NCBI GenBank assembly: GCA_030531205.1
Contig: JAUNOC010000005.1
Span: forward strand, 1-64,000
Source: Phascolarctobacterium sp.
Lineage (GTDB): Bacteria; Bacillota; Negativicutes; Acidaminococcales; Acidaminococcaceae
Reading direction: 5' to 3'
Length of the DNA stretch: 64,000 nucleotides
The position numbers were made by a program, and so were the translations under genes. How positions within the stretch are numbered: position 1 is the first letter of the stretch; each line of letters opens with the position of its first letter. Positions 10,105-54,268 of the stretch are shown one piece after another. A model generated the notes under the pieces. The model searched no databases, had not been told where the DNA came from, and saw nothing but the letters and a program-made list of their open reading frames with translations.

Positions 10105-10224
10105 TCCGCCTCGCTTCGCTCGGCACCTCCCCTGACTGGGAGGAAATTAAGTTCGTATTCTGCTAACTTTTTGCCCCCAGTTAGGGGGGCTGTCGGCTCA
10201 GTTTTTAAGTAGCCGACTGGGGGG
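10105..10224. repeat. GC-rich hairpin repeat inside the R-M operon
   Basis: Hairpin modules of the window-wide repeat family: CCGCCTCGCTTCGCTCGG, CCTCCC..GGGAGG, GCCCCC..GGGGGGC and the block CGGCTCAG-TTTTTAAGTAGCCG. The last block is identical to one in the arms of the DUF559 elements at 51321 and 53723. It abuts the stop codon of the upstream RhuM gene. Confidence 0.8.
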
Positions 10225-15229: not shown

Positions 15230-15400
15230 ACGGAACATTTTACCATATTTGTTCTTTGATTATTTTGTCTTTATTCTTGTCGTACTTTTCCCCACACCCT
15301 TTAATTCCCTCTCCCCAAGGAGAGGGTTACTTTCGCTTTCATCCAACTTCCCTATTTCTAATCACAGGAACCTTTCACCTTCATTGTGCATCGTGAATTA
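15230..15400. repeat. Degenerate repeat modules between ksgA and hsdR
   Basis: Contains a GAACATTTTACCATA end, a TTCTTTGATTATTTTGTCTTTATTC block also seen at about 42420, a CCCTCTCC..GGAGAGGG hairpin (about 15309-15328), the CTTTCATCCAACTTCCC block also at 34993, and a TAATCACAGGAACC end near 15367. It is a partial member of the TIR repeat family. No gene is visible in 15186-15876. Confidence 0.65.
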
Positions 15401-23000: not shown

Positions 23001-23277
23001 TGGTAAAATGTTCCTGTGATTATAGCAAGAAAGTCCGCATAATGCGAAAGTAACCCTCTCCCTGGGGAGAGGGGGCAGGGGTGTGGGGAAACTTTGCACA
23101 TTTCACATCTTCAACAGAAAGTATCAACCTAATTGCTCACCCCACCACCGACCTTAAAAACTGTGTCGGTTCCCCGCCCCTTTAGGGGCGGACGAGTGTC
23201 AGCATAACCCCTAACTTTCCATAAATCCTGTATCCTTATTCCTTTATCTTAATTCAAATCGCAGGAACATCCTACCT
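23001..23277. repeat. TIR-type intergenic repeat element
   Basis: Left end TGGTAAAATGTTCCTGTGAT at 23001; the right end at 23257-23276 is its imperfect inverse. Inside are a GTCCGCATAATGCG module, the CCCTCTCCCTGGGGAGAGGG hairpin, the CCCCACCACCGACC..GTCGG module and a CCGCCCCTTTAGGGGCGG hairpin. It carries no gene. Confidence 0.8.
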
Positions 23278-34901: not shown

Positions 34902-35036
34902 TGGTAGAAAGTTCCTGTGATTAAAATTGGGGTTTCAGGTATGCGGGGTTTTGCGAACCCTCGTCCGCCCCTAAAGGGGCGGAAAAAGTTCGCTTTCATC
35001 CAACTTCCCTGCTCTAATCACAGGAACATTTTACCA
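34902..35036. repeat. Compact TIR repeat element (135 bp)
   Basis: The clearest member of the TIR family. The 22-bp ends (34902-34923 and 35015-35036) are inverse copies with two mismatches. Inside are a heptamer-like GGGGTTTCAGGTATG, a CGTCCGCCCCTAAAGGGGCGG hairpin and CTTTCATCCAACTTCCC. AT-rich words (TAATGAGTAATT, ATTACGCATTGCGAATT) flank it. Together with a G8 run at 34854 it fills most of the 300 bp between atp and wecB. Confidence 0.85.
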
Positions 35037-36286: not shown

Positions 36287-36557
36287 TGGTGTTATGTTCC
36301 TGTGATTAGAAATAAAAAAGTCCGCTTAATGCGAACTGATTTTCCCTCTTTCTAAAGAGGGTGGCTGCCCACAGGAACACAGGGGCAGACGGGTGTTTTT
36401 GCATTATGCGAAGCATTCAAAAACTTCTAACTTACAACTTCCTCCGTAGGGGCGGGTTTCAAACCCGCCCGTCCTTTCATATTTTATCGTCCTTTCTTCG
36501 GGCAGGTTACAAACCTGCCCCTACGAATAATATTATAATCACAGGAACTTTATACCA
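36287..36557. repeat. TIR-type intergenic repeat element (271 bp)
   Basis: Left end TGGTGTTATGTTCCTGTGAT at 36287; right inverse end at 36536-36557. Inside: GTCCGCTTAATGCGAAC, CCCTCTTT..AAAGAGGG, a CTGCCC..GGGCAG hairpin, GCATTATGCGAAGCATTC, and GTAGGGGCGGGTTTCAAACC/GGCAGGTTACAAACCTGCCCCTAC inverted blocks. A closely similar but truncated copy is at 49392-49668. Confidence 0.85.
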
Positions 36558-36850: not shown

Positions 36851-36900
36851 AATTTCTAAAAAAAATCCCGTGCATCGCACGGGATTTTTTTTTAGAAATT
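36851..36900 (-). terminator. Terminator of autotransporter 1
   Basis: An almost perfect hairpin of about 23 bp: AATTTCTA, an A-tract and TCCCGTGC around a 3-base loop, with matching GCACGGGA, T-tract and TAGAAATT. The outer stem includes the stop codon region. Confidence 0.9.
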
Positions 36901-39900
36901 ATAGAAAATCCTCGCCATTCCATCCCAACCTTTTCTCTTGCCTATATAGGCATTGGCTCCAAGTCCCAATGTCCATTTCTTGCTTACTTTCCAGTCGCAA
37001 CCTACTTCCATTATGCCTGTGTTGCCTTTCATACTTGGTGCGGGTGCTTCACCTACACCACTAATGCTTGCTCTCGCCTCGCCTTTGAATTCATGCTCCC
37101 AAGCAAGTCCGATATATGGTTTGGCATTACTTTTTTCTTGAACAAAATTATATTTCGCTCCGACTCTCACTCTGTGGCTCTTCACGCTGTCAAAGTGATA
37201 TTTGCTGTCTTTGAGTGTTGCGTCACACGCTCCTACATGTCCGTAAGTATATCTGCCATACACATCTATTTCATTCTTGCCTACGGGATAGATGTGTCCC
37301 ATGCCTACCATAATGCCATAATATCTGCTGTCCATGTCATAACCGCCAAGTTCGCTTTGACTCCACTCTGTTTCCTGCTTGCCGTAGCGGATATTGCCTT
37401 CGTAATAGGTGTTGTTGGTGAGTTTATGTCTTGCCATAATACCCACGCCTTTGTTTTCGGAATTGCCATCACCGTGTACGTTGCCGTTGTAGGTGTCAAA
37501 GTCCCCTTTGCCATATTCAAAGAACAAGCCGTAGGTGGTAGCAGAGCCGTCTTTCCAGTCCCTTGTCTTGCCTGCACCTACAAGTACTCCCCAGCCGTCC
37601 ACATCCACATGGCTTCCTGTTTTGTATTTGCTGCTGCCCGCACTCATTGCACCGAAGGTGTTGGTTGCACCGCCGGCAGTTTCTGCAATCAAACTCTTCA
37701 TGCCGTCACCGCTTGCCAAATCCGCACTCATATTCACGGTCTGCACCGCCGCCGCCATGCCCTCAACGGGTGCTTTCTGTTGGTCTTCATTGCCTGCGGA
37801 CTTCTTTTGTTCAAAGTCACGTAATAACTTTATAACTAAATCTTTATTATCACTATCTCCATTAGCATCAGCATCTGTCTGCTCAACACACAACTCTGCT
37901 GCACCGCCAAGAATACTACCAGCAGTATAAGTTCCCGCAGTTTCTTCAAAAACATCTACTAATGTAATAACATCATCTTTTTTCAGTTTAACCCCATTTG
38001 CAGCATAAACATTGATAGTTGCCTCGCCTCCAGTTGGAATATCAACTCTCAATATTTTTGTTTTTATCATTGTGTCCCCATTAGCAATATCACTCGGTAA
38101 AGTAAAATTCATGGTCTGAAAATAACCAACAATCCTTGCCTTACCGCTCATTTTTATTTTTAAATTCAAAATATTATCACTGCTTGTGCCACTTGAATAA
38201 CCGCCATAAAAACTGCAATCATCCGCAAATGTTCCGCCCAGAATATTCATTATATTACCATCAGCACGTTGAGAAGCACCACTACCACCTGCCTGTCCAC
38301 CATAAACACCACTACTTTCTCCAAAATTACCGCCATATATATTCACTATATTTCCAACAGCATTACCATTTACACTATGTCCGCCACAAATAGATCCCTT
38401 TATATTTCCACTACAAACGTTCACAATATTCCCTTTAACCTCTGAACCTGTACCAAAACTTCTTCCGCCATAAAGTCCACTTGTATTGATGAGATTAATT
38501 TCTCCACCAATAATATTTATAACATTATTCTCTGCAATACCATTCTTATTATAACCGCCATAAATATAAATAAAATTCTCACTATTAGTTTTAAAACTGA
38601 CATTGCTTAAAGTAACTTCATTTCCCTTCGTTTCCCCATTGCCCATATAATAACTATCACTCTCATCATACCCGCCGGCAATCTTAATATCTCCATAAGT
38701 TATTGAACTTATATCAAAACATACATTATTAATATTTACTTTATTGCCATTGATTTTGTTTTTACCACTATCAGAGAATTTATACGCACCAAAAATTTTA
38801 GTAACTCCCTTAAAACTGCCACCCGTAATGTTCACTTCATTACCAGTGACATTATGATCAGACCCACCCCTCAAATAACCACCACAAATGGCACCATTAC
38901 CTTGATCTGTAAAAGAACCGCCTGCTATCTTTACCTTATTTCCTTTAACATTCCCACTTCCACTATATCCGCCATAAATATCGGTATATCCATCACTTGC
39001 ACCAAAAGTACCGCCATTAATGATTGTTTCATTATTTATTGCATCATCGCTTGACCTGCCTGCAATAATATCTTTATTTTTGCTAAAATTTCCACCATTG
39101 ATAACAATCGTGTTATGTGTAGCATTCCCGCCATACTCAACATATGCAGAATAGATGTGATTATTTGAATCAACAAAAGTGCCATCGTTAATTACGAGGA
39201 TATTATCATATAAATTACCATATTTAGCATAAGCAACATATATAGCAGCATCAAATTTTACACCTGCATTAATAGTGATACTATTATTCTTTAGTATTCC
39301 CGGTGAGTTTTCCGTTCCTTCATACTTTACCCCAAAAATATCATAGTTAAATGTTCCGTCATGAATAGTCAAATGATTGTTGCTGATATTTGCTCCTGCC
39401 ACATCAGATGCCACCAACCTAATTACAGGAGTAAAATCACCATTGTAAGTACCACCCCGTACTACCATGTTCCATCCGTTCAAATCAGAAGAAGATATTT
39501 TTTGATTACCAATAATTTCATTATAATCTGCTGCAGCAGAAGGTTCAAAAGAAACACCACCATGAGTAATTGTATAATCCGCTTTTGCTGTTGGCGTTGT
39601 TCCACCAGTGTAATAAATCAAATCACCATTTAGTACAGTAATATTTCCTGTAGCGACAGTTCCCCCGTAACTTCCGTTCACATTCTGCATCAAAGTAATA
39701 TAATCCCCATCGCCCAAAGTAATACCATTAGTATTAACAGTAATATTAGCCACATTCCATGCAGATAAATCCAACGCACTTCCCTGCATCCTCAACACAA
39801 TATCATCCGAAGTCGTACCCTTCGGCAAAGTAAAATTAATCGTACCAAAACTTTTAATACCGCCAACTTTTACATTGGTACGGTTGACATTCAATACTCT

Positions 39901-41796
39901 ATCAGTTTCAGAAACATTTTCATACCCCATCAGCGTAGCGCCAGAAAGATCAAGAGGATTTGTGCCTTGAATGGTAACAGTACTTGCACTACCAGAAGGC
40001 ATTCCATTTCCATCTACCGCAATAATCGATGTTGTCCCCGTGAAAATACCCCCTTCAAGAATAATCTGCTGATTAGCATTTGCCATAGAGGTTGGTGCAT
40101 TGGAACCATAAATTTTATTACCTGACCCTTGGAAAGTTCCTCCTTTAATAGTTACATTATTATCATACAAAAAACCACTATACCCACCATAAATTTCAAA
40201 ATTCTTAAAAGAACCGTTGTTAATGATGACCTCATTGTAGTACGCATTACTCGTTCCTGTTGTTTCACCACCCTTTATCACTATTTTACCACTTCCCGAC
40301 CCTTCAAAAGTACCACCATTAATAATAACTTTGTTGTTTAATGCCTGACCGTCTCCGTTATTCTTACCGCCAACAATTTCTACACTAAAATTACCCGTAC
40401 CCTTAAATGTGCCATTGTTAATAACAACTTTGTTGTTTGATGCCTGACCGTTTCCCTTATTCTCACCGCCAACAATTTCCACTCCAAAATCACCTGTACT
40501 CTCAAAAGTACCATTATTAATTGTCACACTATTATAATCTGCTTTGCTGGCACTGCCATCCGCATAACCGCCATAAATCTTATTACCCGTGCCGGAATTG
40601 AAAGTAACATTTTCAATAACCACCTTATTTCCCTTATCCGCACTGTCCCCGCCGGCAACACCATTAAGATTATAGCCACCATAAATTTCACTGCTATTGC
40701 TAAAAGTCCCTCCATAAATATTTACTGCATTGCAACTGATAGTACGAGGATCACTAAGCATTACTTTTTCATGATAACCGCCGTAAACTGTGACGGCAGC
40801 CGTACTGCCAAAACTGCCACCATAAATATTCACTGTATTATTGTCCGCATCTCCGGTTTTACTATATCCGCCACAAATCTTTGCTCTTTTTATATTAGCA
40901 CCATTATAAATGTTAACTACATTTTGGGAAACAATACCTGTAACGCTAAAGGTATAAATATTTTTTCCACCAAAAATTCCATCAAAATATTCATCTACGG
41001 AATATCCAAAAGTAAATGTACCGCCTGTAATATTCACTATGTTACCAATGACATTACTATTTACATCTGCACCTAAACCGCCAAAAAATCCTCTGTCACC
41101 AGAACCAACGTCAAAGCTAAAATCTCCTCCGGTTATATTTAATTTATTCCCCCTTGCATCACCACCGGAACCGCCCTCAAGATGTGCATATCCTGCATAA
41201 AACCCATTAGCTGGGCCTGAGATAAATGTTCCACCAGAAATAGTTAAAGTATTATCAAAAGCATTAAGACCATAACCGCCATAAATTCTGCCCACTAAAT
41301 CACCACTGTTGCACGCAAAAGTTAACTCATTTCCCACCGCATTCCCCCAAGCACTTCTGCCTCCATAAATTTCAAAACCTTGGAATGTGGGGGAACCGTC
41401 TATATTAACTTTATTGTTACTGACATTGCCATTAAAACTGCAACCGCCATGAATTTGCACACCACCGGCAAAAGTGCCACCTGAAACAGTCAGTATATTA
41501 TTTGTAACATTCCCCTCCCTGCTATGACCTGCAAAAAAGTATTTTGCATCACCAAATGCAATTCCGCCGACATCACTTTCCGACCCTGTCAAAGTCAAAT
41601 TAGCACCAGTTGCACAAGCGCCGGAAATTTCATTCCAATGAGCATATGAATCTGTACCAATATTTATACCTGCCCATACAGTGGCATTATTTCCATCACC
41701 ATACCATGTATCACCATCAGCAGCAAAAGCATTGTGAGCAAACATATTTGCCCCAATCACCGCCAAAGCAATCAAAATCTTTTTTGACTTAATCAT
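36892..41796 (-). CDS. Autotransporter (type Va secreted) with repeat passenger, AT1
   Basis: A 1634-residue protein. A signal peptide (about 1-25, ending AHNAFA-A) is followed by a long passenger built from degenerate repeats of about 25-40 residues, pattern N-x-V-x-I-x-GG-x-F then IYGGY, as expected for a right-handed beta-helix. A linker with DFEQKKSAGNEDQQKAPVEG precedes the C-terminal autotransporter barrel (about 1380-1634), which ends YNF. The barrel is inserted in the outer membrane and the passenger displayed outside, probably for adhesion. Promoter, leader and terminator are visible. The last ~920 bp are very similar to AT2. Confidence 0.92.
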   Translation of the reverse strand: MIKSKKILIALAVIGANMFAHNAFAADGDTWYGDGNNATVWAGINIGTDSYAHWNEISGACATGANLTLTGSESDVGGIAFGDAKYFFAGHSREGNVTNNILTVSGGTFAGGVQIHGGCSFNGNVSNNKVNIDGSPTFQGFEIYGGRSAWGNAVGNELTFACNSGDLVGRIYGGYGLNAFDNTLTISGGTFISGPANGFYAGYAHLEGGSGGDARGNKLNITGGDFSFDVGSGDRGFFGGLGADVNSNVIGNIVNITGGTFTFGYSVDEYFDGIFGGKNIYTFSVTGIVSQNVVNIYNGANIKRAKICGGYSKTGDADNNTVNIYGGSFGSTAAVTVYGGYHEKVMLSDPRTISCNAVNIYGGTFSNSSEIYGGYNLNGVAGGDSADKGNKVVIENVTFNSGTGNKIYGGYADGSASKADYNSVTINNGTFESTGDFGVEIVGGENKGNGQASNNKVVINNGTFKGTGNFSVEIVGGKNNGDGQALNNKVIINGGTFEGSGSGKIVIKGGETTGTSNAYYNEVIINNGSFKNFEIYGGYSGFLYDNNVTIKGGTFQGSGNKIYGSNAPTSMANANQQIILEGGIFTGTTSIIAVDGNGMPSGSASTVTIQGTNPLDLSGATLMGYENVSETDRVLNVNRTNVKVGGIKSFGTINFTLPKGTTSDDIVLRMQGSALDLSAWNVANITVNTNGITLGDGDYITLMQNVNGSYGGTVATGNITVLNGDLIYYTGGTTPTAKADYTITHGGVSFEPSAAADYNEIIGNQKISSSDLNGWNMVVRGGTYNGDFTPVIRLVASDVAGANISNNHLTIHDGTFNYDIFGVKYEGTENSPGILKNNSITINAGVKFDAAIYVAYAKYGNLYDNILVINDGTFVDSNNHIYSAYVEYGGNATHNTIVINGGNFSKNKDIIAGRSSDDAINNETIINGGTFGASDGYTDIYGGYSGSGNVKGNKVKIAGGSFTDQGNGAICGGYLRGGSDHNVTGNEVNITGGSFKGVTKIFGAYKFSDSGKNKINGNKVNINNVCFDISSITYGDIKIAGGYDESDSYYMGNGETKGNEVTLSNVSFKTNSENFIYIYGGYNKNGIAENNVINIIGGEINLINTSGLYGGRSFGTGSEVKGNIVNVCSGNIKGSICGGHSVNGNAVGNIVNIYGGNFGESSGVYGGQAGGSGASQRADGNIMNILGGTFADDCSFYGGYSSGTSSDNILNLKIKMSGKARIVGYFQTMNFTLPSDIANGDTMIKTKILRVDIPTGGEATINVYAANGVKLKKDDVITLVDVFEETAGTYTAGSILGGAAELCVEQTDADANGDSDNKDLVIKLLRDFEQKKSAGNEDQQKAPVEGMAAAVQTVNMSADLASGDGMKSLIAETAGGATNTFGAMSAGSSKYKTGSHVDVDGWGVLVGAGKTRDWKDGSATTYGLFFEYGKGDFDTYNGNVHGDGNSENKGVGIMARHKLTNNTYYEGNIRYGKQETEWSQSELGGYDMDSRYYGIMVGMGHIYPVGKNEIDVYGRYTYGHVGACDATLKDSKYHFDSVKSHRVRVGAKYNFVQEKSNAKPYIGLAWEHEFKGEARASISGVGEAPAPSMKGNTGIMEVGCDWKVSKKWTLGLGANAYIGKRKGWDGMARIFYNF

Positions 41797-41859
41797 AACT
41801 CCACCTGCTTTCCATAAAAGTATGAATTGATAAATAATTTAAATAAAAACTTAAAATAC

Positions 41860-41888
41860 ATTATATCTGAATACTATCAATATGACAA
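41860..41888 (-). promoter_or_regulatory. Promoter of autotransporter 1
   Basis: TTGTCA (41888-41883), 17-bp spacer, TATAAT (41865-41860); about 55 bases of leader with AGGTGGAG just before the ATG. Confidence 0.7.
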
Positions 41889-42028
41889 GTTATTTTGACC
41901 ATTCCAAAATACTTTATAAAAACCGCTACAATTTTTCCACAAAGATTAAATAAAACCATTCCAACAATCGCCACGCAATAAAAAAATCAAAAACATTCCC
42001 AAAACAATGAGCAATGTTAAAAAAGGGA

Positions 42029-42064
42029 TTTTTAACGTTAAATCTTCACTTTTAACGTTAAAAA
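42029..42064. repeat. Paired-palindrome hairpin, AACGTT version 1
   Basis: TTTTTAACGTTAAA (42029-42042) and its inverse TTTAACGTTAAAAA (42051-42064), preceded by AAAACAATGAGCAATGTTAA, exactly as at 49270-49305. Confidence 0.85.
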
Positions 42065-42148
42065 CTCCCTTTTCTTTAGAGGATAACTCTTCGGATAAAT
42101 AAAATAATATAGAGAAATTAAAAGTTAAAAGCTTAAAGCTTAAAACTA

Positions 42149-42384
42149 TGGTAATTTGTTCCTTTGATTGAAATAAAAAGTTCGCATAATGCTGACTGTT
42201 TTTTCCCGCCCAGGCGTGGGTAGACAGTCCAGTGGACTGTCGCCGAGAAATTCGGGTTTGTTCGGCGAGGCAAAAAAGCTATAGGAACATAGAAGTGCAA
42301 GACGGGGTGGGTCGCTCTCCCCGACTGAAGAACCAAACTTAACATAGTACTAACCATTACTATAATCACCGGAACACCCTACCA
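42149..42384. repeat. TIR repeat holding one arm of the DUF559 element without the gene
   Basis: Left end TGGTAATTTGTTCCTTTGAT at 42149 and right inverse end at 42363-42384. Inside, GTTCGCATAATGCTGACT is followed by CCCGCCCAGGCGTGGG and, at about 42283-42323, GGAACATAGAAG and GACGGGGTGGGTCGCTC. These match the 5' arm of the DUF559 elements, but no coding sequence is present. Confidence 0.8.
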
Positions 42385-42474
42385 TCATTTCTAATTTCAC
42401 ATTTCTAATTTAATTTTCTGGAGCTATTTACCATATTTGGTCTTTGCTCTTTGATTATTTGCTCTTTATTCTTA

Positions 42475-42596
42475 TCGTAGTGGGCGACCCCACCACCGAC
42501 CTTAAAAACTGTGTCGGTCCCCCGCCCCACGCCTGTGGCGGAAAAAGACCGCACTCTGCCAACTTCCTAAAATCTAATCACAGGAACATTCTACCA
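42475..42596. repeat. Repeat holding the other arm of the DUF559 element without the gene
   Basis: CCCCACCACCGACCTTAAAA, CTGTGTCGGTCCCCCGCC and CCACGCCTGTGGCGG are the reverse complement of the 3' arm of the DUF559 elements. They are followed by a TIR right end TAATCACAGGAACATTCTAC at 42575. The 870 bp between the autotransporter genes hold only repeats and the AT1 promoter. Confidence 0.75.
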
Positions 42597-42630
42597 CAAC
42601 TTTAAGCTTTAAGCTTTTATCTTATCTCTT

Positions 42631-42680
42631 ATAATTTCTAAAAAAAAGGTGGCTTTCGCCACCTTTTTTTTAGAAATTAT
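42631..42680 (-). terminator. Terminator of autotransporter 2
   Basis: A perfect 23-bp stem (42631-42653 with 42658-42680), core AAGGTGGC/GCCACCTT, overlapping the stop codon. Confidence 0.9.
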
Positions 42681-45600
42681 AGAACACCCTCGCCATTCCA
42701 TCCCAACCTTTTCTCTTACCAATATAGGCATTCGCTCCAAGTCCGACTGTCCACTTCTTACTTACTTTCCAGTCACAACCTACTTCCATTATGCCTGTAT
42801 GTCCTTTCATACTTGGTGCGGGTGCTTCACCTACACCACTAATGCTTGCTCTCGCCTCGCCTTTGAATTCATGCTCCCAAGCAAGTCCTACATAGGGTTT
42901 GGCATTGCTGTCCTTTAATTTGAAGTTATATTTTCCGCCAATTCTTACACGATGACTTTTCACACTTTCAAAGTTATAGTGGCTGTCGCCTACTGTGGCA
43001 TCACAAGCACCTACATGTCCGAAGGTATATCTGCCATAGACATCTATTTCATTCTTGCCTGCGGGGAAGATATGTCCCATGCCGACCATTATGCCGTAAT
43101 ATTTGCTGTCAGTGTCATAACTGCCTAATTCACTTTCGCTCCATTCGGTTGTCTGTTTGCCGTAACGGATATTGCCTTCGTAATAGGTGTTGTTCAGCAT
43201 TTTGTGCCGCATCATAATACCTATGCCTTGGTTCTTGCTGTTGCCGTCCCCGTGTACATTGCCGTTGTAGGTGTCAAAATCCCCTTTGCCATATTCAAAG
43301 AATACGCCCAAAGTTGTGGCTTCGCCGTTGCCCCATTCTTTTGTTTTGCCCACACCGACTAACAGTCCCCAGCCGTCAACATCCACATGGCTGCCGGTTT
43401 TATATTTGCTGCTGCCTGCACTCATGGCACCAAAGGTGTCTGTTGTACCGCCTGCGGTATTGGCAAGCAAACTGCTCATACCTTGACCGCTTGCCAAGTC
43501 CGCACTCATGTTCACGGTCTGCATGGCTGCGGCAATGCCCTCAACCGGGGCTTTCTGTTGGTCTTCATTACCTGCGGTCTTCTTTTGTTCAAAATCTTGT
43601 AATAAGGTTAAAATCAAATCATTACCATCTAATTTAACTATTGCCGCACCATTAAGAACGCTCTCCTCGTCATTAGCGATAGTAGTACTATTTATATTAT
43701 CCGCTTTTACCAAATAAATAACATCATCTTTATTGAGTTTTACACCATTGGCAGCAGTAACGCCTATGGTTGTATTGTCATAGATAACACTTGCAGTTTC
43801 CAACATAATATCGCCATTTGTAATATTACTTGGCAATGTGAAATTCATGTTTTGGAAATGCGAAACTTCGCTTGCCTTGCCACCCATTTTTATTTTCAAG
43901 TTCAAAGTATTGTTAGTGCTTGTGCCAGTTGTATATCCGCCATACAAACCAAAATTATTGCCGAAAGTACCGCCTGCGATTTCCACTATATTGTCTTTCG
44001 CCTCACCACTACTACCGTACGCTCCCCAAAAACTGATATTATCGCCAAAAGTACCGCCGTTAATATATATTTTATTTTCATTAGTACTACCACTACCAGT
44101 AACAACATATCCACTCCAAATACCACTACCACTACTGTAACCTTCAAAATTTCCGTCATTGACTATTACCGTATTTCCATTAGAATTACCATCGTCTGTA
44201 TTACCTGCACCAATATTACTATTATTAAAAGTGCCGGTGTTAATTGTTATTTTATTGTAATTGGCATTACCACTACTATAGACATAGCCACCATAAATTG
44301 CACTACCAGTCCCAAAACTACCGCCATCAATTATCACCTTATTGCCCTTATCCTCAGTATCACCACCTGCATTACCATTATTAGTATAAGCACCATAAAT
44401 TTCAGTTCCATCTCCAAATGTACTGCTCTTAAGTGTTACAAAGTTCCCCTCCGCATCCTTACTTCCTGTATAACCGCCATAAATCACAATCGAGTCACTC
44501 AAAGTAGCATTCTCAATAATAACACCATTTTCCTTAACCAATGTGTCTGTTGCATTACCGCCATAGATTGTACTCTCGTTTGCAACACTGATATTTTTGA
44601 TAGTTACTTTGTTGTTTTCCACTAATTTGGCAGTTCCCGAACTTGCATGACCACCATAAATACTTATTTTGTAGTCAAAAGTACCACCAGTAATATTGAC
44701 CTCATTTCCACTTATCTCAGCATCTAAATTATCTTGCCATAAAATAGCACCTTTAATGGTAACATATTTGCCAAAAGTACCACCAGTGATATTCACCTTA
44801 TTGCCTGTGGCACTACCATTCTTAACCTCTGCACCATAAATATTGACAGCATTATCACTACCAATAATACCGCCATTAATGGTTATAATGTTGCCTGTTG
44901 CATCACCGTCACCATGTATATACCCAGCATCAATTTCTTTACTGTCACCGACATCACCCCCGTTTATAATTATTTTATTTCCTACAACATTGCCGTTTGC
45001 TCCAACATATCCTGCATAAATGTCATAACCTCCGGCAAAAGTACCACTTTCAATAGTGAGTTCATTATAATTTGCATTACCATTATTTATTATCCAGCCG
45101 CCAGCAACCCGATGAAATTTACCATCATGCAGTTCCACAGAATTATGTTCAACATTACCACTTCCAACACTTGCACCATAAACATTAACTTCATCATTTG
45201 CATCATCTAAGTTGAATTGTGCATTGGCAATGATAACACTGTTATTGTTTGCTGCAGTAACTGACCCATTCCTATATATACCATAAATATTAATCTTGCC
45301 GTCCGTTACATAAGTCAAATCAAAACTCCCGCCACTAATATTAACTTTGTTACCGCTATATGTGTTAGCACCGGCATAATTGCCAACAGATACACCGGCA
45401 ATGTCCATTGAACCAACAAAAGAACCAGCGTTAACATTAACTTCATTGCCGCTAATTGTATTACCAGCACCACTATATAAATACACACCACAAATATAAA
45501 GCCATGGACTAGCGTCATTAGACCCAATCGTACCACCATTAATGGTAATAGTATTACCATTAGCTGTTCCTCCTGCATATACGGCTACAATATGCTTATT

Positions 45601-48147
45601 AGTGTTGATATTTCCTCCATTAATAACAATGCTATTATTCGTAGAACTACCACTTATATTCATTCCATAAACAGCATAAATTGAAGCAGAATCGCCATTC
45701 TTAAAATCGCCAGCATTAATTGTAATCACATTTCCTGTAAAATTTCCTGTCCCGCGCGTATGTACAGCCCATAACCCGCCATAATAAAGTCCAGAAGCAC
45801 TATGAAATGTACCACCATGAACAGTTATTGAATTGTTATTCATATCTTTTCCATCAGTGCCAGTATAATATACACCATAAATATCATTTTCGTATGTTCC
45901 CCTGCGGATAATAACTTCATTACCACTGTAACTGGTATCAACAAGCCCCTCTGGCGACTTGTTCACATTACCCTTAATATCTGTAGTAAAACTATAAGTG
46001 CCGTTTATTGTTGTTTCATGCCACACCTTAGTTCCATTATCTTGCTTAATGGTGTAATCGCCTTTTTGAGTTGCCGGTTGTGTGCCGGTGTAGTAAATCA
46101 AATCATTACCTAATTTCATAATACCAGTACTTGATCCGCCATAATCACCAGTAACATTCTGCATCAAAACAATATAATCATTACCAGTTAGAGAACTGTT
46201 GGTAATATTAATGTTGACACTATTAAGAGTTGACACATCAAAAGAACCATCCATTTTCAACACAATGGCATCGGAACTTGCACCATCCAAGTTAAAGTTA
46301 ATCGTGCCAAAGTTTTGAATGTCTTTTACCGCAACATTGGTTCTCGCTACATTCAAAGTACGGTCCTCAGTCCCGTAGGTGAAGGTGTTTTCGTACCCCA
46401 TCAAGGTAGCGCCGGACAAATCGAGAGCATTACTGCCTGCTATGGTAATTTTGTTACCGCTTGCAGGATATGATGCTGAACCATCTGCCGCAATAATTGT
46501 TGCCTTGCTGAAAATACCGCCATTAAGAACTACTTCATTATTCGATATTCCAATACCAGATATTAGGTAAGCACCATAAATTTTATTATCATTGGTTCCA
46601 TTAAAAGTACCACCATCAATAATAACTTTATTACCGGTCACATTTTCTGCTCTGCCGCCAATTATTTTCGCACCTTGAAAAACACCGTTTTTAATGGTTA
46701 CTGAATTATTATTTGCATCACCGACTGCATCACCACCTATAATGGTAATTTCTCCAGCACCGGCAGCAATGAATGTACCATTATTAATATTAACACTGTT
46801 ATTACTTGCAGTACCGTCATGATCCGCTTTACCACCTGCAATCTTTAAACTAAAATCAGCAGCACCAGTAAAGGTTCCGTTGTTAATAGTTACTTTATTG
46901 TTATATGCCTTTCCTGCAGTCCCTGAAGTACTCGCACCATAGATTTTGTTATCTATACCATAGTTAAAAGTGGCGTTATTGATTGTAACCCAGTTACCGT
47001 CATTTGGGTCGCCTGTTGCCGAATCACTGCCTGCTATGCCATTTTCAGCACGATTGATTGCACCATAAACCTGTGCATTTTTAAAAGTGCCGCCATTCAA
47101 AATAACATAATTCTTTTTTGCAAAAGATCCATTAGGACTGCCATCGTCAACTTCACCACCGAAAATACTAATTGTGTCATTCGGATTAGTTCTGGCAAAA
47201 GTGCCACCATTAACTATTACATAGTTACCCGTTGCCGATGCTTTTACACACGCACCTTTCACAGCATCATTTATCGTTCCATTATTGATAATTACATAGT
47301 TTTCAACTGCTTCCGAAGTCGTTTCAACACCATATATATATCTTGAAAATGTACCGCCATTAATTTCTACAGAATTATCGATGGCAGGCAAAGGATTCGT
47401 AACAGTACCACGGCTTATGCCACCATATACCCACGCACTTATCTGACTATTACCGTTAATTATCAATTTGTTATGTTGCACATTGCCACCAAACGCTGGA
47501 GACAAAGGTTCTTCCATTGCAGCAGCACCGACAAGAAATTGAGAAATTGTACAGTCAGTAACTGTCAATACATTGTTATATGCCTTTCCTCCGTCAGATG
47601 CAGTATAACCAGCACCAGCAACACCACAAGTAACACCAGTTATAAACGCTTTGTTATTGATTACATCACCATCCATAGAATATCCTGCCGCAATGCCAAT
47701 TATTCCTGAACCAATTAGATCGTTATTGGTAAAAAATATCCCGCCATTTACAGTCAATTTATTATCACGGACAATGCCCTTCTGTGCTACAGCGGCACAA
47801 GCATTTTGAACCACATATACACCTGCTTCAACATTCATTGTAACATCATGCCCACTTAATGTTACAAAATCACCCGTCATATCCAAAGCCCCTGTCAAAG
47901 GAAAGGTGGGAACTACAACAGGATCTGCTGAATGATCACCATACTCTTCTTGTATATTAAATACTATTGTGTTGCCTGTTTTGTTAAAAGCAGTCGGGTC
48001 ATAACCGCTTGTTGCATCAAACTCCACCGGGCTGCCACCGTTCAAAACATAAGTATTTGCCGCCAAGGCATTAGCGGAACACAACAAATTCCCCGCCAAG
48101 AGTGCCAACATCACTTTCTTTTTCAAATCAATTTTTTCAATTTTCAT
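42670..48147 (-). CDS. Autotransporter (type Va secreted) with repeat passenger, AT2
   Basis: An 1825-residue paralogue of AT1. The signal peptide has a charged extension (MKIEKIDLKKKVMLALLAGN) and ends near SANALA-A. The passenger holds dozens of N-x-V-x-I-x-GG-x-F..IYGG repeats and shares with AT1 a mid-passenger block (LDLSGATLMGYEN, then NRTNV-like ARTNVAV, then DLIYYTG). The C-terminal barrel, from DFEQKKTAGNEDQQKAPVEG to YNF, is nearly the same as that of AT1. GGGAGGG lies 6 bases before the ATG. Likely a surface adhesin; the ligand is unknown. Confidence 0.92.
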   Translation of the reverse strand: MKIEKIDLKKKVMLALLAGNLLCSANALAANTYVLNGGSPVEFDATSGYDPTAFNKTGNTIVFNIQEEYGDHSADPVVVPTFPLTGALDMTGDFVTLSGHDVTMNVEAGVYVVQNACAAVAQKGIVRDNKLTVNGGIFFTNNDLIGSGIIGIAAGYSMDGDVINNKAFITGVTCGVAGAGYTASDGGKAYNNVLTVTDCTISQFLVGAAAMEEPLSPAFGGNVQHNKLIINGNSQISAWVYGGISRGTVTNPLPAIDNSVEINGGTFSRYIYGVETTSEAVENYVIINNGTINDAVKGACVKASATGNYVIVNGGTFARTNPNDTISIFGGEVDDGSPNGSFAKKNYVILNGGTFKNAQVYGAINRAENGIAGSDSATGDPNDGNWVTINNATFNYGIDNKIYGASTSGTAGKAYNNKVTINNGTFTGAADFSLKIAGGKADHDGTASNNSVNINNGTFIAAGAGEITIIGGDAVGDANNNSVTIKNGVFQGAKIIGGRAENVTGNKVIIDGGTFNGTNDNKIYGAYLISGIGISNNEVVLNGGIFSKATIIAADGSASYPASGNKITIAGSNALDLSGATLMGYENTFTYGTEDRTLNVARTNVAVKDIQNFGTINFNLDGASSDAIVLKMDGSFDVSTLNSVNINITNSSLTGNDYIVLMQNVTGDYGGSSTGIMKLGNDLIYYTGTQPATQKGDYTIKQDNGTKVWHETTINGTYSFTTDIKGNVNKSPEGLVDTSYSGNEVIIRRGTYENDIYGVYYTGTDGKDMNNNSITVHGGTFHSASGLYYGGLWAVHTRGTGNFTGNVITINAGDFKNGDSASIYAVYGMNISGSSTNNSIVINGGNINTNKHIVAVYAGGTANGNTITINGGTIGSNDASPWLYICGVYLYSGAGNTISGNEVNVNAGSFVGSMDIAGVSVGNYAGANTYSGNKVNISGGSFDLTYVTDGKINIYGIYRNGSVTAANNNSVIIANAQFNLDDANDEVNVYGASVGSGNVEHNSVELHDGKFHRVAGGWIINNGNANYNELTIESGTFAGGYDIYAGYVGANGNVVGNKIIINGGDVGDSKEIDAGYIHGDGDATGNIITINGGIIGSDNAVNIYGAEVKNGSATGNKVNITGGTFGKYVTIKGAILWQDNLDAEISGNEVNITGGTFDYKISIYGGHASSGTAKLVENNKVTIKNISVANESTIYGGNATDTLVKENGVIIENATLSDSIVIYGGYTGSKDAEGNFVTLKSSTFGDGTEIYGAYTNNGNAGGDTEDKGNKVIIDGGSFGTGSAIYGGYVYSSGNANYNKITINTGTFNNSNIGAGNTDDGNSNGNTVIVNDGNFEGYSSGSGIWSGYVVTGSGSTNENKIYINGGTFGDNISFWGAYGSSGEAKDNIVEIAGGTFGNNFGLYGGYTTGTSTNNTLNLKIKMGGKASEVSHFQNMNFTLPSNITNGDIMLETASVIYDNTTIGVTAANGVKLNKDDVIYLVKADNINSTTIANDEESVLNGAAIVKLDGNDLILTLLQDFEQKKTAGNEDQQKAPVEGIAAAMQTVNMSADLASGQGMSSLLANTAGGTTDTFGAMSAGSSKYKTGSHVDVDGWGLLVGVGKTKEWGNGEATTLGVFFEYGKGDFDTYNGNVHGDGNSKNQGIGIMMRHKMLNNTYYEGNIRYGKQTTEWSESELGSYDTDSKYYGIMVGMGHIFPAGKNEIDVYGRYTFGHVGACDATVGDSHYNFESVKSHRVRIGGKYNFKLKDSNAKPYVGLAWEHEFKGEARASISGVGEAPAPSMKGHTGIMEVGCDWKVSKKWTVGLGANAYIGKRKGWDGMARVFYNF

Positions 48148-48204: not shown

Positions 48205-48330
48205 TTTAATTAAGAATTCTGAATGCAGAATTAAGAATGAAGGTAAGAGTCCGCACTCTGCCACCATTCCTGAAACTTGACACCTCACACCTGATCCCTA
48301 ACTATATAATCACAGGAACTTTCTACCTTA
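48205..48330. repeat. Partial TIR repeat upstream of autotransporter 2
   Basis: AATTAAGAATTCTGAATGCAG arm words, GTCCGCACTCTGCCACC, ACACCTCACACCTGATCCC heptamers and a right end TAATCACAGGAACTTTCTAC (about 48307). A C9 run lies at 48474-48482. Nothing else is visible in 48331-48537. Confidence 0.65.
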
Positions 48331-49391: not shown

Positions 49392-49668
49392 TGGTTTTAT
49401 GTTCCTGTGATTGAAATAAAAAAAGTCCGCTTAATGCGAACTTTTTTCCCTCTTTCTTAAAGAGGGTGGCTGCCCACAGGAACACAGGGGCAGCCGGGTG
49501 TTTTTGCATTATGCGAAGCATTCATAAACTTTAAGCTTTGAGTTTTTATCTCTTCATTAGCGTCAACCTAATTGCTCACCCCACCACCGTCCTTCTATGT
49601 TCCTTTAGACGGTCCCCCGCCCCTTTATGGGACGGACGAGGGTTCGCATAACCCCGCACACCTGAGAC
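49392..49668. repeat. Truncated TIR repeat copy next to the carrier gene
   Basis: Left end TGGTTTTATGTTCCTGTGAT at 49392, then the same modules as 36287 onward, including CCCTCTTT..AAAGAGGG, CTGCCC hairpin, CCCCACCACCGTCC and GCACACCTGAGACCTA. The right end is missing; the element runs directly into the stop codon of the next gene. Confidence 0.8.
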
Positions 49669-51320: not shown

Positions 51321-51866
51321 TTTCCGCCCCAGGCGTGGGGCGGGGGACCGGCTCAGTTTTTAAGTAGCCGGTGGTGGGGTCGCTCTCTGCGACTGCACCA
51401 CGAACATCCTACTCTATTCTTGCCTTAACTTCCCTATCTATAAATTCACATACACTTCTAAAATTTTTATCTACATCACTATTCAAAATTCTAATTACCT
51501 TATACCCATTTTGTTCCAAGAATCTTATTCTTTCCTTATCATATTTTTGACTGTCAGGATTATAATGTCCTCCTCCATCAAGTTCAACAATGAGTTTAAC
51601 TGCATTACAAGAAAAATCTGCAATGTATTTACCAATGATTACCTGTCTTTTGAATTTAATTGGATATTTTTTTAGAAACATAAACCATAACTTGCCTTCC
51701 CATGGTGTCATTTGCTTCCGCATTTCTTTGGCATATTGATTTAGTTTTTCTTTAGTTTCAACTTGTTTCATTGTGTTATTTTTCTTATCGTAGCGAGCGA
51801 CCCACCCCGTCTTGCCTTTTTATGTTCCTTTAGGCAATCCACCCCGCCCACGCCTGGGCGGGAAAA
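51321..51866. mobile_element. DUF559 cassette, copy 1 (546 bp)
   Basis: An exact 546-bp duplicate of 53723-54268. The ends are imperfect inverse copies, each itself a hairpin: CCGCCCCAGGCGTGGGGCGG at the left and CCCGCCCAGGCGTGGGCGGG at the right. One gene for a DUF559 protein fills the middle. Flanking GTTCGTATT..CTGAC and TTC words match other members of the repeat family. No transposase and no clear target duplication are seen, so mobility is inferred from exact duplication and from gene-less arms at 42211-42540. Confidence 0.7.
51409..51771 (-). CDS. DUF559 endonuclease-like protein, copy 1
   Basis: A 120-residue protein of the DUF559 family, related to Vsr-type PD-(D/E)xK endonucleases. 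The opening MRKQMTPWEGKLWF, the acidic site YIADF (D52) with VELDGGGH (E63, D65, H69), and RIRFLEQNGYKVIRILNSDV are typical. Its target is unknown. It has only a weak ribosome site (ATAACACA before ATG). It is identical to the gene at 53811 and is the only coding region in the cassette. Confidence 0.85.
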   Translation of the reverse strand: MKQVETKEKLNQYAKEMRKQMTPWEGKLWFMFLKKYPIKFKRQVIIGKYIADFSCNAVKLIVELDGGGHYNPDSQKYDKERIRFLEQNGYKVIRILNSDVDKNFRSVCEFIDREVKARIE

Positions 51867-51873
51867 TTCAACT

Positions 51874-52911
51874 TTATTCTTGCTTCTCCCTATCCTTATA
51901 GCTGAACATTCCCATTTTTCTCGCCCCCACTGCCACCGCTGTGGCAATGACCGCAATCAGGAGAGCCGCCCAAATCCCTTTCAACTCTGCATAAAGCACG
52001 GCCGCAACCGCCAATGCACCTGTAATGGCGTACATAAACAACACCGCCTGTTTTTGGTTCATACCCTGCTCCATTAAGCGGTGATGAATATGCCCCTTGT
52101 CCGGTTGGAAAATTGGTCGTCCGCTGCGGTAGCGCCGGACAATGGCACAGGCAGTATCTGCAATGGGTAGTCCCATAACAATGGCTGGCACAAAAAGAGA
52201 AATACTGGCTGCTGTTTTCACCGCACCGTCCACGCTAAAAGCCGCCAAAATAAAACCGATAAACATAGACCCTGTATCACCCATAAAAATTGTGGCAGGA
52301 TTAAAATTGTAACGGACAAATCCTATACAAGAACCGAAAAGTGCCGCACTGAGCATGGCAGGTTCCATATATCCTGCCTGTGCCGCCAGACATGCCGTAG
52401 TAAAGGAAGCGATTGCCCCCACTCCGGCTGCCAGTCCGTCCAGCCCGTCAATCAGATTTGTTATATTAGTAAAAGCCACCACCCAAAAAATTGTAAAAGG
52501 TATGCTTAAATATTCAAAGTAAATATATTCGCCATCACCAAAGGGATTGGTCATCCACTCCACTTTAATGTCAAAGGCAATCAACACAAAGGCACTTAAG
52601 ATTTGTCCCAAAAGTTTAACTTTGGCTGGCAGTTGATAAATGTCATCCAAGATACCTACCACTACAATAAAAGTACCCCCCAAGAGAATTCCTAATAAAT
52701 CCTTTGAAAAGGGTACTGATACCAACACGGCAATGGTGAATGCAAAATAGATTGCCAAACCTCCCAAGCGTGGCATGGGGATTTTATGTACCTTCCGTTC
52801 ACCGGGAAGGTCAACAGCCCCTACTTTGAATGCTATTTTTTTCACAAACGGGGTAATGCAATAGGCGATGAGTGCCGCCAACAGCACGGGAAACCCCAAC
52901 ATACTAATCAT
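51874..52911 (-). CDS. wecA: Undecaprenyl-phosphate N-acetylglucosaminyl 1-phosphate transferase (WecA/TagO type)
   Basis: A 345-residue membrane enzyme of the MraY/WecA family with about ten membrane helices. Motifs are HKIPMPRLGGLA, GILDDIYQLPAKVKL, TNLIDGLDGLAAG, FNPATIFMGDTGSMF and the HIHHRL loop. It attaches GlcNAc-1-phosphate to undecaprenyl phosphate to start surface polysaccharide synthesis, which fits wecB at 35087. Its ATG overlaps the fchA-like stop (ATGA). The 3' end lies 7 bp from the DUF559 cassette. Confidence 0.94.
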   Translation of the reverse strand: MISMLGFPVLLAALIAYCITPFVKKIAFKVGAVDLPGERKVHKIPMPRLGGLAIYFAFTIAVLVSVPFSKDLLGILLGGTFIVVVGILDDIYQLPAKVKLLGQILSAFVLIAFDIKVEWMTNPFGDGEYIYFEYLSIPFTIFWVVAFTNITNLIDGLDGLAAGVGAIASFTTACLAAQAGYMEPAMLSAALFGSCIGFVRYNFNPATIFMGDTGSMFIGFILAAFSVDGAVKTAASISLFVPAIVMGLPIADTACAIVRRYRSGRPIFQPDKGHIHHRLMEQGMNQKQAVLFMYAITGALAVAAVLYAELKGIWAALLIAVIATAVAVGARKMGMFSYKDREKQE

Positions 52912-53531
52912 TTTTTATTAATCAGTTTCAAAACTGTTTCTTTGCAACTTTGCACTTTGGCTTTGCAGAGAGCCAGCTGTTTTTGACAGTCAGCTACAAA
53001 TGCCTCGTTATGTGTCAGTGGCAAATTAACAAGCACATTCAGTTCTGCACTTTCCAAAGCCGCTCCTGCTATAATTACACCGCAACCGGCATCCGTCAAA
53101 AGTCCGGGATTGCCGATTTTGGCAATGCGTTCCGTAAGTTCTGCCACTTTGGCACAGTGCTGGCAAATTCTCAACGGTACCAAAGCCGCTCCTTGTGCTG
53201 CTTTTGCCAAATATTCCTCACGCAACATTTTTTCCTGTTCCGTATTTTTCGGCATGGCATAGCCATCCATTATCATTTGATAGGCGTTGGCATCCTCATC
53301 AATGAGTTTCAAAAGTTCTGCCCGGGCAACAGCCAATTTCCCTTCCAAGAGTTTCATTTCCTGTTCCACCGACGCAAATTTTTCCTTACCCAAAGTAAGG
53401 TTTGCCATCATACTTGCAAGCGCTGCCGCCAAAGCACCAGCCAATGCCGCCGCCCCACCTCCACCGGGAGTGGGTGACTTGGAAGCGAGTTTCTCTATGA
53501 AGTTAGTAATGCTTGTATCACTTAACAACAT
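52908..53531 (-). CDS. Formiminotetrahydrofolate cyclodeaminase (FchA/FTCD-C family)
   Basis: A 207-residue helical protein of the FTCD_C family. The start SITNFIEKLASKSPTPGGGG with the following Ala-rich helix and the later LTDAGCGVIIAGAALESAE region are diagnostic. The family turns 5-formimino-THF into 5,10-methenyl-THF plus ammonia. No other folate or histidine gene is near; coupling is with wecA only by overlap. Confidence 0.88.
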   Translation of the reverse strand: MLLSDTSITNFIEKLASKSPTPGGGGAAALAGALAAALASMMANLTLGKEKFASVEQEMKLLEGKLAVARAELLKLIDEDANAYQMIMDGYAMPKNTEQEKMLREEYLAKAAQGAALVPLRICQHCAKVAELTERIAKIGNPGLLTDAGCGVIIAGAALESAELNVLVNLPLTHNEAFVADCQKQLALCKAKVQSCKETVLKLINKK

Positions 53532-53603
53532 AATTACAGGAACTAATTACCTTAATTTTTAACTTTTAACTTTTAACTCGCCAAATTTTTGCAAGTTAAA
53601 ATT

Positions 53604-53691
53604 TGGCGGAAGGGGTGGGATTCGAACCCACGGAGGGTTGCCCCTCGCTGGTTTTCAAGACCAGAGCCTTAAACCACTCGACCACCCTTCC
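53604..53691 (-). tRNA. tRNA-Ser (anticodon UGA)
   Basis: Acceptor stem GGAAGGG/CCCTTCC, anticodon loop CTTGAAA with TGA, a long variable arm typical of serine tRNA, T-loop GGTTCGAATCC and an encoded CCA (53604-53606). It lies between fchA and the second DUF559 cassette, whose edge is 32 bp upstream of the tRNA 5' end. Confidence 0.95.
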
Positions 53692-53722
53692 GCAATATAC
53701 AATAAAAAAACTATGCTGACTT

Positions 53723-54268
53723 TTTCCGCCCCAGGCGTGGGGCGGGGGACCGGCTCAGTTTTTAAGTAGCCGGTGGTGGGGTCGCTCTCTGCGACTGCAC
53801 CACGAACATCCTACTCTATTCTTGCCTTAACTTCCCTATCTATAAATTCACATACACTTCTAAAATTTTTATCTACATCACTATTCAAAATTCTAATTAC
53901 CTTATACCCATTTTGTTCCAAGAATCTTATTCTTTCCTTATCATATTTTTGACTGTCAGGATTATAATGTCCTCCTCCATCAAGTTCAACAATGAGTTTA
54001 ACTGCATTACAAGAAAAATCTGCAATGTATTTACCAATGATTACCTGTCTTTTGAATTTAATTGGATATTTTTTTAGAAACATAAACCATAACTTGCCTT
54101 CCCATGGTGTCATTTGCTTCCGCATTTCTTTGGCATATTGATTTAGTTTTTCTTTAGTTTCAACTTGTTTCATTGTGTTATTTTTCTTATCGTAGCGAGC
54201 GACCCACCCCGTCTTGCCTTTTTATGTTCCTTTAGGCAATCCACCCCGCCCACGCCTGGGCGGGAAAA
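53723..54268. mobile_element. DUF559 cassette, copy 2 (546 bp)
   Basis: Base-for-base the same as 51321-51866, in the same orientation, 2402 bp away. The two copies bracket wecA, the fchA-like gene and tRNA-Ser. To its right are TTCGTATAACCCCTAAC and heptamer modules of the general repeat family. Confidence 0.7.
53811..54173 (-). CDS. DUF559 endonuclease-like protein, copy 2
   Basis: A 120-residue protein, the same residue for residue as that encoded at 51409-51771, with putative active site D52, E63, D65 and H69. See that entry for motifs. Being lodged upstream of the tRNA-Ser gene in the same direction, transcription of the cassette could run into the tRNA. Confidence 0.85.
   Translation of the reverse strand: MKQVETKEKLNQYAKEMRKQMTPWEGKLWFMFLKKYPIKFKRQVIIGKYIADFSCNAVKLIVELDGGGHYNPDSQKYDKERIRFLEQNGYKVIRILNSDVDKNFRSVCEFIDREVKARIE

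Follow-up and report, generated by a model that had tools for sequence, protein, structure and literature searches.

The window, the whole 64,000-nucleotide stretch of Phascolarctobacterium sp. DNA analysed here, holds two copies of a cassette in which a single DUF559 gene lies between hairpin-forming ends. The question raised by this locus was whether the cassette is a mobile element and, if so, which enzyme moves it. Its features were as follows.

51321-51866, minus strand: DUF559 element copy 1, 546 bp, the same at every base as copy 2
53723-54268, minus strand: DUF559 element copy 2, adjoining the tRNA-Ser gene at 53604-53691
51409-51771, minus strand: predicted DUF559 (Vsr-like PD-(D/E)xK) nuclease gene, copy 1, 120 aa
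53811-54173, minus strand: predicted DUF559 nuclease gene, copy 2, protein identical to copy 1
51802-51862, minus strand: terminal module 5' of gene copy 1, with an outer hairpin CCCGCCC/GGGCGGG, an inner hairpin and a mirror-repeat third strand GGGGTGGG towards the gene
51324-51379, plus strand: inverted terminal module 3' of gene copy 1, with a hairpin CCGCCCC/GGGGCGG, an inner hairpin and a third strand GGTGGTGGGG towards the gene
54204-54264, minus strand: terminal module 5' of gene copy 2 (copy 1 position + 2402)
53726-53781, plus strand: terminal module 3' of gene copy 2 (copy 1 position + 2402)

The maximal identical block between the two regions was 546 bp, with flanks that diverged immediately on both sides, and each copy contained one ORF of 120 amino acids on the minus strand. 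The computed hairpin folding of the cassette ends gave z = -3.4 and -5.6, better than 200 of 200 shuffles. The exact block, the ORF, its Pfam match (below) and the folding bore out what an earlier note on this DNA had described, namely two copies identical at every base, each with a single DUF559 gene between inverted hairpin-forming ends. The DNA comes from a draft assembly in 15 contigs, and the second exact copy might be an assembly artefact; each copy had its own unique flanks, however, and both lay in one 102-kb contig, which makes this reading very improbable for the window pair. An artefact is also unlikely as a general explanation, because other subfamilies of DUF559 genes in the same genome had 2-3 diverged gene-bearing copies and related genomes had several copies of the element each. 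The general conclusion is independent of the exact window pair.

The window protein matched Pfam DUF559 (PF04480) with an E-value of 2.6e-29 and 101.7 bits against a curated cut-off of 20.6, and a profile search of the window gene gave no match to Y1_Tnp. Its AlphaFold model (pLDDT 90.9) matched 3hrl (Z 16.5 over 91 residues), the homing endonuclease I-Bth0305I (3r3p; Z 13.7 over 94 residues), which was the nearest fold outside DUF559, and Vsr (1cw0; Z 11.0 over 100 residues). The model indicated that the protein has a Vsr-like PD-(D/E)xK nuclease fold, with predicted nuclease activity. Six residues (E25, D52, E63, D65, H69, and D78) were invariant in 14 sequences, and dN/dS values of 0.14-0.29 indicated that the DUF559 gene is under purifying selection. 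The defence models of PADLOC gave only weak partial matches (DpdF, 1.7e-4; mREase_II, 2.4e-4).

Relatives of the terminal modules occurred elsewhere in the window without the gene.

42211-42330, plus strand: 5' module relative without the gene, broken up by other sequence (matched part 42279-42317)
42475-42544, plus strand: 3' module relative without the gene, 88% identical, forming a gene-less pair with 42211-42330
23139-23180, plus strand: gene-less single module relative, 86%
10173-10227, plus strand: module of the same layout, found by inspection, with a CCCCCAGTTAGGGGG hairpin, the inner hairpin common to the element and a GGGGGG third strand
49443-49526, minus strand: gene-less 3' end of a subfamily-A element, 93%
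36340-36419, minus strand: gene-less 3' end of a subfamily-A element, 93%

The arms had been said to match gene-less modules at 42211-42330 and 42475-42540, and both matches were recovered (42279-42317 and 42475-42544); the partial match claimed at 10193-10224 was real, with the common inner hairpin lying within a module of the same layout. Besides those at 42279-42317, 42475-42544, and 23139-23180, the 1.33-Mb genome contained about 45 more gene-less relatives of the ends, and gene-less units far outnumbered gene-bearing ones; by this count, which had been proposed earlier, gene-less copies are genome-wide. The genome contained eight DUF559 genes in four subfamilies, each with its own end type. 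Subfamily A comprised three gene-bearing and seven gene-less copies; all seven of the latter shared one internal-deletion junction and retained the first ~36 and the last ~28 nt of the gene. As judged from this junction, the gene-less copies of subfamily A are MITE-like derivatives of the gene-bearing ones and not the reverse.

In 70 genomes of one Clostridia genus, a ~450-bp element occurred in about 20 copies, 77-88% identical to the query. Nearly all of these matches ended at query positions 709-715 and 1161-1172, the flanks were mostly unrelated, and homology ended at the hairpin tips; gene-less doublets in this genus consisted of two modules and nothing more. Related layouts were found in Proteobacteria, Cyanobacteria, and Deinococcus, and in Sphingomonas the DUF559 gene lay inside the suf operon. 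Separately, some cyanobacterial DUF559 genes were observed amid other genes in defence-like neighbourhoods. When empty and filled sites were compared between strains, the cassette was absent at both window sites, one of them the tRNA-Ser site, in relatives of the same genus, but synteny was broken at both and therefore gave no base-level footprint; the Clostridia example likewise had broken synteny and yielded no such footprint. No target-site duplication was evident by eye in the element copies read, and no consensus target was found for the element. The earlier note had held that copies in relatives confined to one site and never duplicated would refute its reading; many unrelated sites and multiple copies were found instead. 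The fixed ends, the many sites and the multiplied deletion derivatives indicated clearly that the unit has moved, and on these comparisons it is almost certainly a mobile element.

The manner of its movement had been pictured as copying or homing between palindromes. In the homing reading, DUF559 would cut existing gene-less modules and recombination between the arms would copy the gene in, by conversion rather than by insertion at a new site. The arms were indeed common to gene-bearing and gene-less copies, and the closest fold outside DUF559 was that of a homing endonuclease, I-Bth0305I. However, most of the data disagreed with homing: fixed ends at many unrelated flanks indicated insertion at new sites in most cases, homology between copies stopped at the module tips, the gene-less copies of subfamily A came from gene-bearing ones, and the gene was also found within operons such as suf in Sphingomonas. 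We consider homing improbable as the main route, and conversion of pre-existing gene-less copies may be an additional one.

To relate the modules to the gene, an end motif within 250 bp of a DUF559 gene and in the expected orientation was scored, and it was present at 72 of 76 Clostridia loci versus 7% of 3052 control ORFs; it stood on both sides at 46 of the 76 versus 0.3% of control ORFs (Fisher p about 1e-72), and at 3 of 23 Y1_Tnp loci. Inverted-repeat scores exceeded the 99th control percentile at 58 of 78 DUF559 loci. When the arms in the flanks were searched by BLAST, additional copies turned up at only 13 of 58 loci; because the inner hairpin was too variable for this search, patterns were used instead. 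Among 297 genomes, uncorrected for phylogeny, the mean number of modules was 16.1 in those with DUF559 versus 2.7 (odds ratio 12.6, p 1e-15), and Y1_Tnp showed no such relation to module number (odds ratio 1.4, p 0.24). The strictness of the link was weakened by two groups: 17 of 74 DUF559-positive genomes had fewer than three modules as counted with the pattern, which covers one stem type only, and 14 genomes without a strong DUF559 match had at least eight modules above control; in G001, an 80%-complete draft, gene-less modules were present and a DUF559 match was absent. Gene loss is a possible explanation for the module-rich genomes without DUF559.

Such genomes, together with the excess of gene-less over gene-bearing units, would also be expected if DUF559 were a passenger, that is, cargo with another job such as mismatch repair or defence, on ends that some general process of the host or an HUH transposase like RAYT would move; DUF559 is Vsr-like, and Caulobacter VsrA is tied to cytosine methylation and DNA damage. 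Against this, no gene other than DUF559 was present in the units that were read, the number of modules followed DUF559 and not Y1_Tnp in the 297 genomes, most Y1_Tnp loci lacked modules, and four DUF559 subfamilies in one genome each had their own end type. RAYT/Y1_Tnp was accordingly rejected as the mobiliser, since neither module number nor the Y1_Tnp loci showed an association, and the passenger reading as a whole appears unlikely. The earlier note's term nuclease-driven agreed with the association, the conservation and the purifying selection, from which we infer that DUF559 is quite probably the enzyme mobilising the unit.

The Y-R-R layout was detected at both window element ends as well as near the 72 Clostridia genes, and the dispersed intergenic module copies, some in inverted doublets, resembled the BoxC repeats of E. 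coli. E. coli K-12 carries both BoxC repeats and ycjD, whose product matched Pfam DUF559 at 1e-48, and a BoxC motif stood at the end of ycjD, clear on one side only and missed by the strict detector. Of 5313 genomes with the site between sapF and fabI, about 3320 have the gene there, in its single location. This single location would suit a static feature, a housekeeping repair or defence nuclease flanked by chance with terminator-like hairpins, with copies that go back to old segmental duplications; that is made the least probable reading of all by the exact or near-exact copies at unrelated sites, the deletion derivatives with a common junction, the absence at corresponding places in relatives and the control ORFs without such flanks. 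Three E. coli comparisons were discarded. At gldA-yijF a BoxC doublet was present in 621 genomes and REP/BIME in MG1655 and most others, which indicated an exchange of repeat types and not an empty site; the difference at mtlD-mtlA was a neighbouring BIME; and the presence or absence of ycjD could not be separated from that of the eefRABCD operon, which occupies the same position.

We favour, as likely, an autonomous mobile element of 450-550 bp with one DUF559 gene between two inverted triplex-type modules, moved by its nuclease. In each module a G/C-rich hairpin precedes a third strand, a mirror repeat that points at the gene; gene-less doublets and single modules would be non-autonomous derivatives multiplied in trans. 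A PD-(D/E)xK nuclease hydrolyses DNA, and strand transfer of the DDE or HUH type is not expected of it. More tentatively, and with slightly less than even confidence in this route, a terminal module would become single-stranded, probably on the lagging strand, and fold; the DUF559 nuclease would recognise the folded end and nick or cut beside it; and host repair or replication would copy the unit to a new intergenic site with no obvious target duplication. With such an element, a function would be provided for much of the large, poorly characterised DUF559 family, the intergenic palindromes that are common in gut Clostridia and Negativicutes would have an explanation, and a nuclease without strand-transfer chemistry would join the ways in which short elements spread.

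Among known systems, the modules are closest to the BoxC/PIT/intrastrand-triplex motif (TM) repeats, intergenic G/C-rich Y-R-R motifs with a hairpin and then a mirror-repeat third strand, which occur as singles and inverted doublets in many genomes and phyla including E. coli and Neisseria (PMC4666352), as the present modules do. By sequence and computed hairpin folding, the terminal modules have this BoxC/PIT layout and are predicted intrastrand-triplex motifs. Recognised in E. coli in the 1990s, these repeats are now on record from more than 260 genomes, with their origin left open, and Holder et al. (2015) stated that no mobility-providing activities had ever been found near E. coli BoxC sites (PMC4666352). 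Unlike the repeats as described, which have no associated gene, the present modules flank a DUF559 gene, and gene-bearing units gave rise to the gene-less ones in one DUF559 subfamily. The repeat system was thus not wholly undescribed, as had been proposed: the repeat class was already known, and the link to an enzyme is the new part. As with REP/BIME and RAYT (TnpA-REP), or REPtrons (PMC8266576, PMC3733652), one enzyme gene lies between inverted palindromes, and gene-less doublets are intergenic in the same genome with no obvious target duplication; the REP-plus-enzyme pattern that had been suggested was thus upheld, with a PD-(D/E)xK-like nuclease, genome-wide gene-less copies and a unit that has clearly moved. 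The enzyme differs from an HUH tyrosine transposase (Y1_Tnp), however, the end modules are of triplex type, a GTAG tag was not noticed on reading the ends by eye, and units with the gene often occur in several copies. The fold is common to EDxHD homing endonucleases (I-Bth0305I) and Vsr, but the DUF559 gene lies outside introns and inteins and has its own terminal repeats and MITE-like derivatives. The internal-deletion derivatives at several sites resemble MITEs of insertion sequences, except that there is neither a DDE transposase nor a clear target-site duplication. Caulobacter VsrA (CCNA_02930; PMC12907096) and E. coli YcjD are likewise DUF559 proteins; in study or annotation they count as a repair nuclease or as unknown. 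The text consulted on them does not connect them with terminal repeats, and no description of a DUF559-repeat link was found in the DUF559 literature covered by a search that left out preprints and most subscription papers. DUF559 is the best candidate for the missing enzyme spreading BoxC-class repeats, and supplies, with a unit of defined ends, a proposal testable in E. coli K-12. There is about an even chance, in our view, that these elements form a distinct class, with a Vsr-like PD-(D/E)xK protein as sole protein and intrastrand-triplex ends, that would have given rise to BoxC/PIT repeats in several phyla, among them the orphan BoxC of E. coli K-12, where ycjD would encode the enzyme, and would use neither DDE nor HUH, tyrosine or serine recombination to move.

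The two copies of the DUF559 cassette were identical over exactly 546 bp, confirming the earlier note that they matched at every base, and the sequence differed at once beyond both borders.

51321-51866, cassette copy 1, DUF559 ORF on the minus strand
53723-54268, cassette copy 2, DUF559 ORF on the minus strand

Each cassette contained one 120-aa minus-strand ORF that matched DUF559 in a profile search (E = 2.6e-29). The two ends were mutually inverted. In each, a G/C hairpin lay outermost, accompanied by a small inner hairpin, and a run rich in G, directed towards the gene, mirrored the purine arm of the outer hairpin with approximately one mismatch. The folding of both ends surpassed 200 of 200 shuffles, and the description of one DUF559 gene between inverted hairpin ends also held. 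These ends and the BoxC/PIT/TM repeats (PMC4666352) have a common layout, in which a mirror-repeat third strand accompanies a hairpin.

The AlphaFold model of the DUF559 protein (mean pLDDT 90.9) was closest to the solved fold of NGO0050, a Neisseria DUF559 protein (Z 16.5), followed by the homing endonuclease I-Bth0305I and Vsr (Z 13.7 and 11.0, respectively); the cassette protein belongs to DUF559 and to the Vsr-like fold. Acidic and histidine residues were invariant across 14 diverse DUF559 sequences, and general knowledge of Vsr-like nucleases suggested that these are probably catalytic. Between-copy dN/dS was 0.14–0.29, apart from one near-identical pair with too few changes to judge, and the gene is maintained as a functional protein.

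The genome of the window (G000, 1.33 Mb) had eight DUF559 genes falling into four subfamilies, and the end type was particular to each subfamily. A similar layout surrounded DUF559 in the relatives G027, G028, G030, G035, and G050, and ends of this kind were not found at a diverged DUF559 copy in G014. Approximately 50 further places in G000, counted as the earlier note had proposed, resembled one cassette end or the other, none with the gene, and several were pairs, including the following on contigs C6, C9, and C12.

C6:21644-21889, gene-less module pair
C9:11298-11551, gene-less module pair
C12:923-1077, gene-less module pair

The arm modules noted without the gene at 42.2-42.5 kb in the window proved to be such a pair, and the partial match at 10.2 kb was indeed a module of the same layout, with the inner hairpin in common with the cassette. 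Subfamily C had two gene-bearing copies and more than 10 gene-less places. Subfamily A had three gene-bearing and seven gene-less copies, the latter spread over six contigs. All seven had a single junction in common, with approximately 36 nt of the gene start and 28 nt of the gene end kept and approximately 337 bp between them missing; one carried an extra deletion and one was broken off by a contig end. Two lay 1.1 kb apart on C9 and may be partly of common history. This set is a MITE pattern, one deletion derivative later multiplied by machinery for which the ends suffice. Nested or repeated terminal modules surrounded some Clostridia DUF559 genes (loci L083, L088, and L153), with 16 further arm matches within 14 kb at L088.

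An element of approximately 450 bp occurred approximately 20 times, at 77–88% identity, across 70 genomes from a single Oscillospiraceae/Ruminococcaceae genus. Nearly all matches started at query 709-715 and stopped at 1161-1172, the tips of the terminal hairpins. The flanks, read directly, were mostly unrelated, except for a site common to L234 and L235 and a repeated flank common to a few copies, and no target rule for insertion was found in the copies compared. Gene-less doublets in this genus consisted of two modules and a short joining spacer. When filled and empty sites were compared, as earlier suggested, two same-genus relatives of G000 lacked the cassette at both window places, though synteny there was not intact; one of them had many gene-less modules. 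Taken together, these comparisons showed that a unit with fixed ends occupies many sites and that gene-less units multiply. The DUF559 nuclease would recognise the folded end and nick or cut alongside it, by either a nick in a single-stranded hairpin or a double-strand cut, and host repair or replication would finish the copying. Such cutting and repair is preferred over pure homing as the means by which the gene spreads, because most flanks were unrelated and the gene-less copies of subfamily A derive from gene-bearing ones, and over classical transposition of the unit, because PD-(D/E)xK nucleases hydrolyse DNA.

Among DUF559 loci gathered solely by protein sequence, 58 of 78 Clostridia loci had upstream and downstream flanks whose inverted-repeat score against each other exceeded the 99th control percentile (controls, 1640 ORFs on the same contigs). 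A triplex motif was detected within 250 bp and in the expected orientation at 72/76 Clostridia DUF559 loci versus 7% of 3052 control ORFs, and on both sides at 46/76 versus 0.3%; at loci of Y1_Tnp, the REP transposase family, it was detected at 3/23. Across 297 genomes of one order, the mean number of modules was 16.1 with a strong DUF559 hit and 2.7 without, the former taking in both ends of every gene-bearing unit, a contribution small relative to the means. By statistics that ignore kinship, the odds ratio between at least eight modules and DUF559 was 12.6 (p = 1e-15), and that between module number and Y1_Tnp was 1.4 (p = 0.24). By comparison, the DUF559 enzyme is conserved and under selection, and it tracks the repeats.

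A second dispersed repeat, TATAATCACAGGAACATTTTACC, occurred at 15 places in the window and lay beside many modules; the pattern AATCACAGGAAC gave 15 matches versus 0.19 expected. A short palindrome like AGTTCGCATAATGCGAACT lay directly outside many G000 elements from different subfamilies; it may belong to the ends as their outermost portion, serve as a preferred target, or represent a separate repeat family.

15360-15371, TATAATCACAGGAACATTTTACC repeat
23010-23021, TATAATCACAGGAACATTTTACC repeat
35016-35027, TATAATCACAGGAACATTTTACC repeat
48308-48319, TATAATCACAGGAACATTTTACC repeat
42180-42199, AGTTCGCATAATGCGAACT-like palindrome (others at loci L221, L223, and L224)

Many diverged repeats of approximately 50–60 bp, spaced near 75–100 bp, lay at 37000-47700 in the window, and a block was duplicated (36886-37444 and 42664-43222); these may represent a pair of large repetitive genes.

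BoxC/PIT/TM repeats occur in more than 260 prokaryotes, their cause left unexplained, with 23 copies (five inverted doublets) in E. coli MG1655, where no mobility genes were found near the sites (Holder et al. 2015, PMC4666352). We found that E. coli ycjD matched DUF559 (1e-48) and had a BoxC motif at its end, with more modules immediately downstream. G/C-rich palindromes of the BoxC kind also adjoined DUF559 in Azospirillum, Sinorhizobium, Neisseria, and cyanobacteria, within the suf operon in Sphingomonas, and antisense in an hpa operon in Deinococcus; a strict detector placed the motif in the expected orientation at 6/10 such loci. In layout and dispersal, the cassette ends match BoxC/TM repeats. 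The E. coli gldA-yijF intergenic region (L210 and L214) held a BoxC doublet in 621 genomes and REP/BIME in MG1655 and most others, which suggests that one kind of site serves two unrelated classes of repeat. On cyanobacterial plasmids (L162, L165, and L166), some DUF559 genes had PglX, DUF1156, or DUF499 as neighbours, a defence-like setting unlike that of the lone DUF559 element.

A literature search, with preprints and most subscription papers outside its range, found no link between DUF559 and these repeats. A Legionella experimental evolution report describes segments carrying a transposase together with a DUF559 gene as recombination hotspots (PMC12308824), which would fit either an active role in DNA breakage or plain homology. 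CGTC-tagged REPs, a large superfamily mainly of Alphaproteobacteria, were reported without a dedicated transposase (PMC3733652); DUF559 or another nuclease is a possible enzyme for them. The element has MITE-like derivatives, but inspection of the copies by eye showed no clear target duplication. Its way of working resembles that of a REPtron, but without an HUH transposase it does not count as a REPtron. We rate it a new addition to the palindromic repeats that have an enzyme of their own, and consider the chances roughly even that it merits the name of a separate class.
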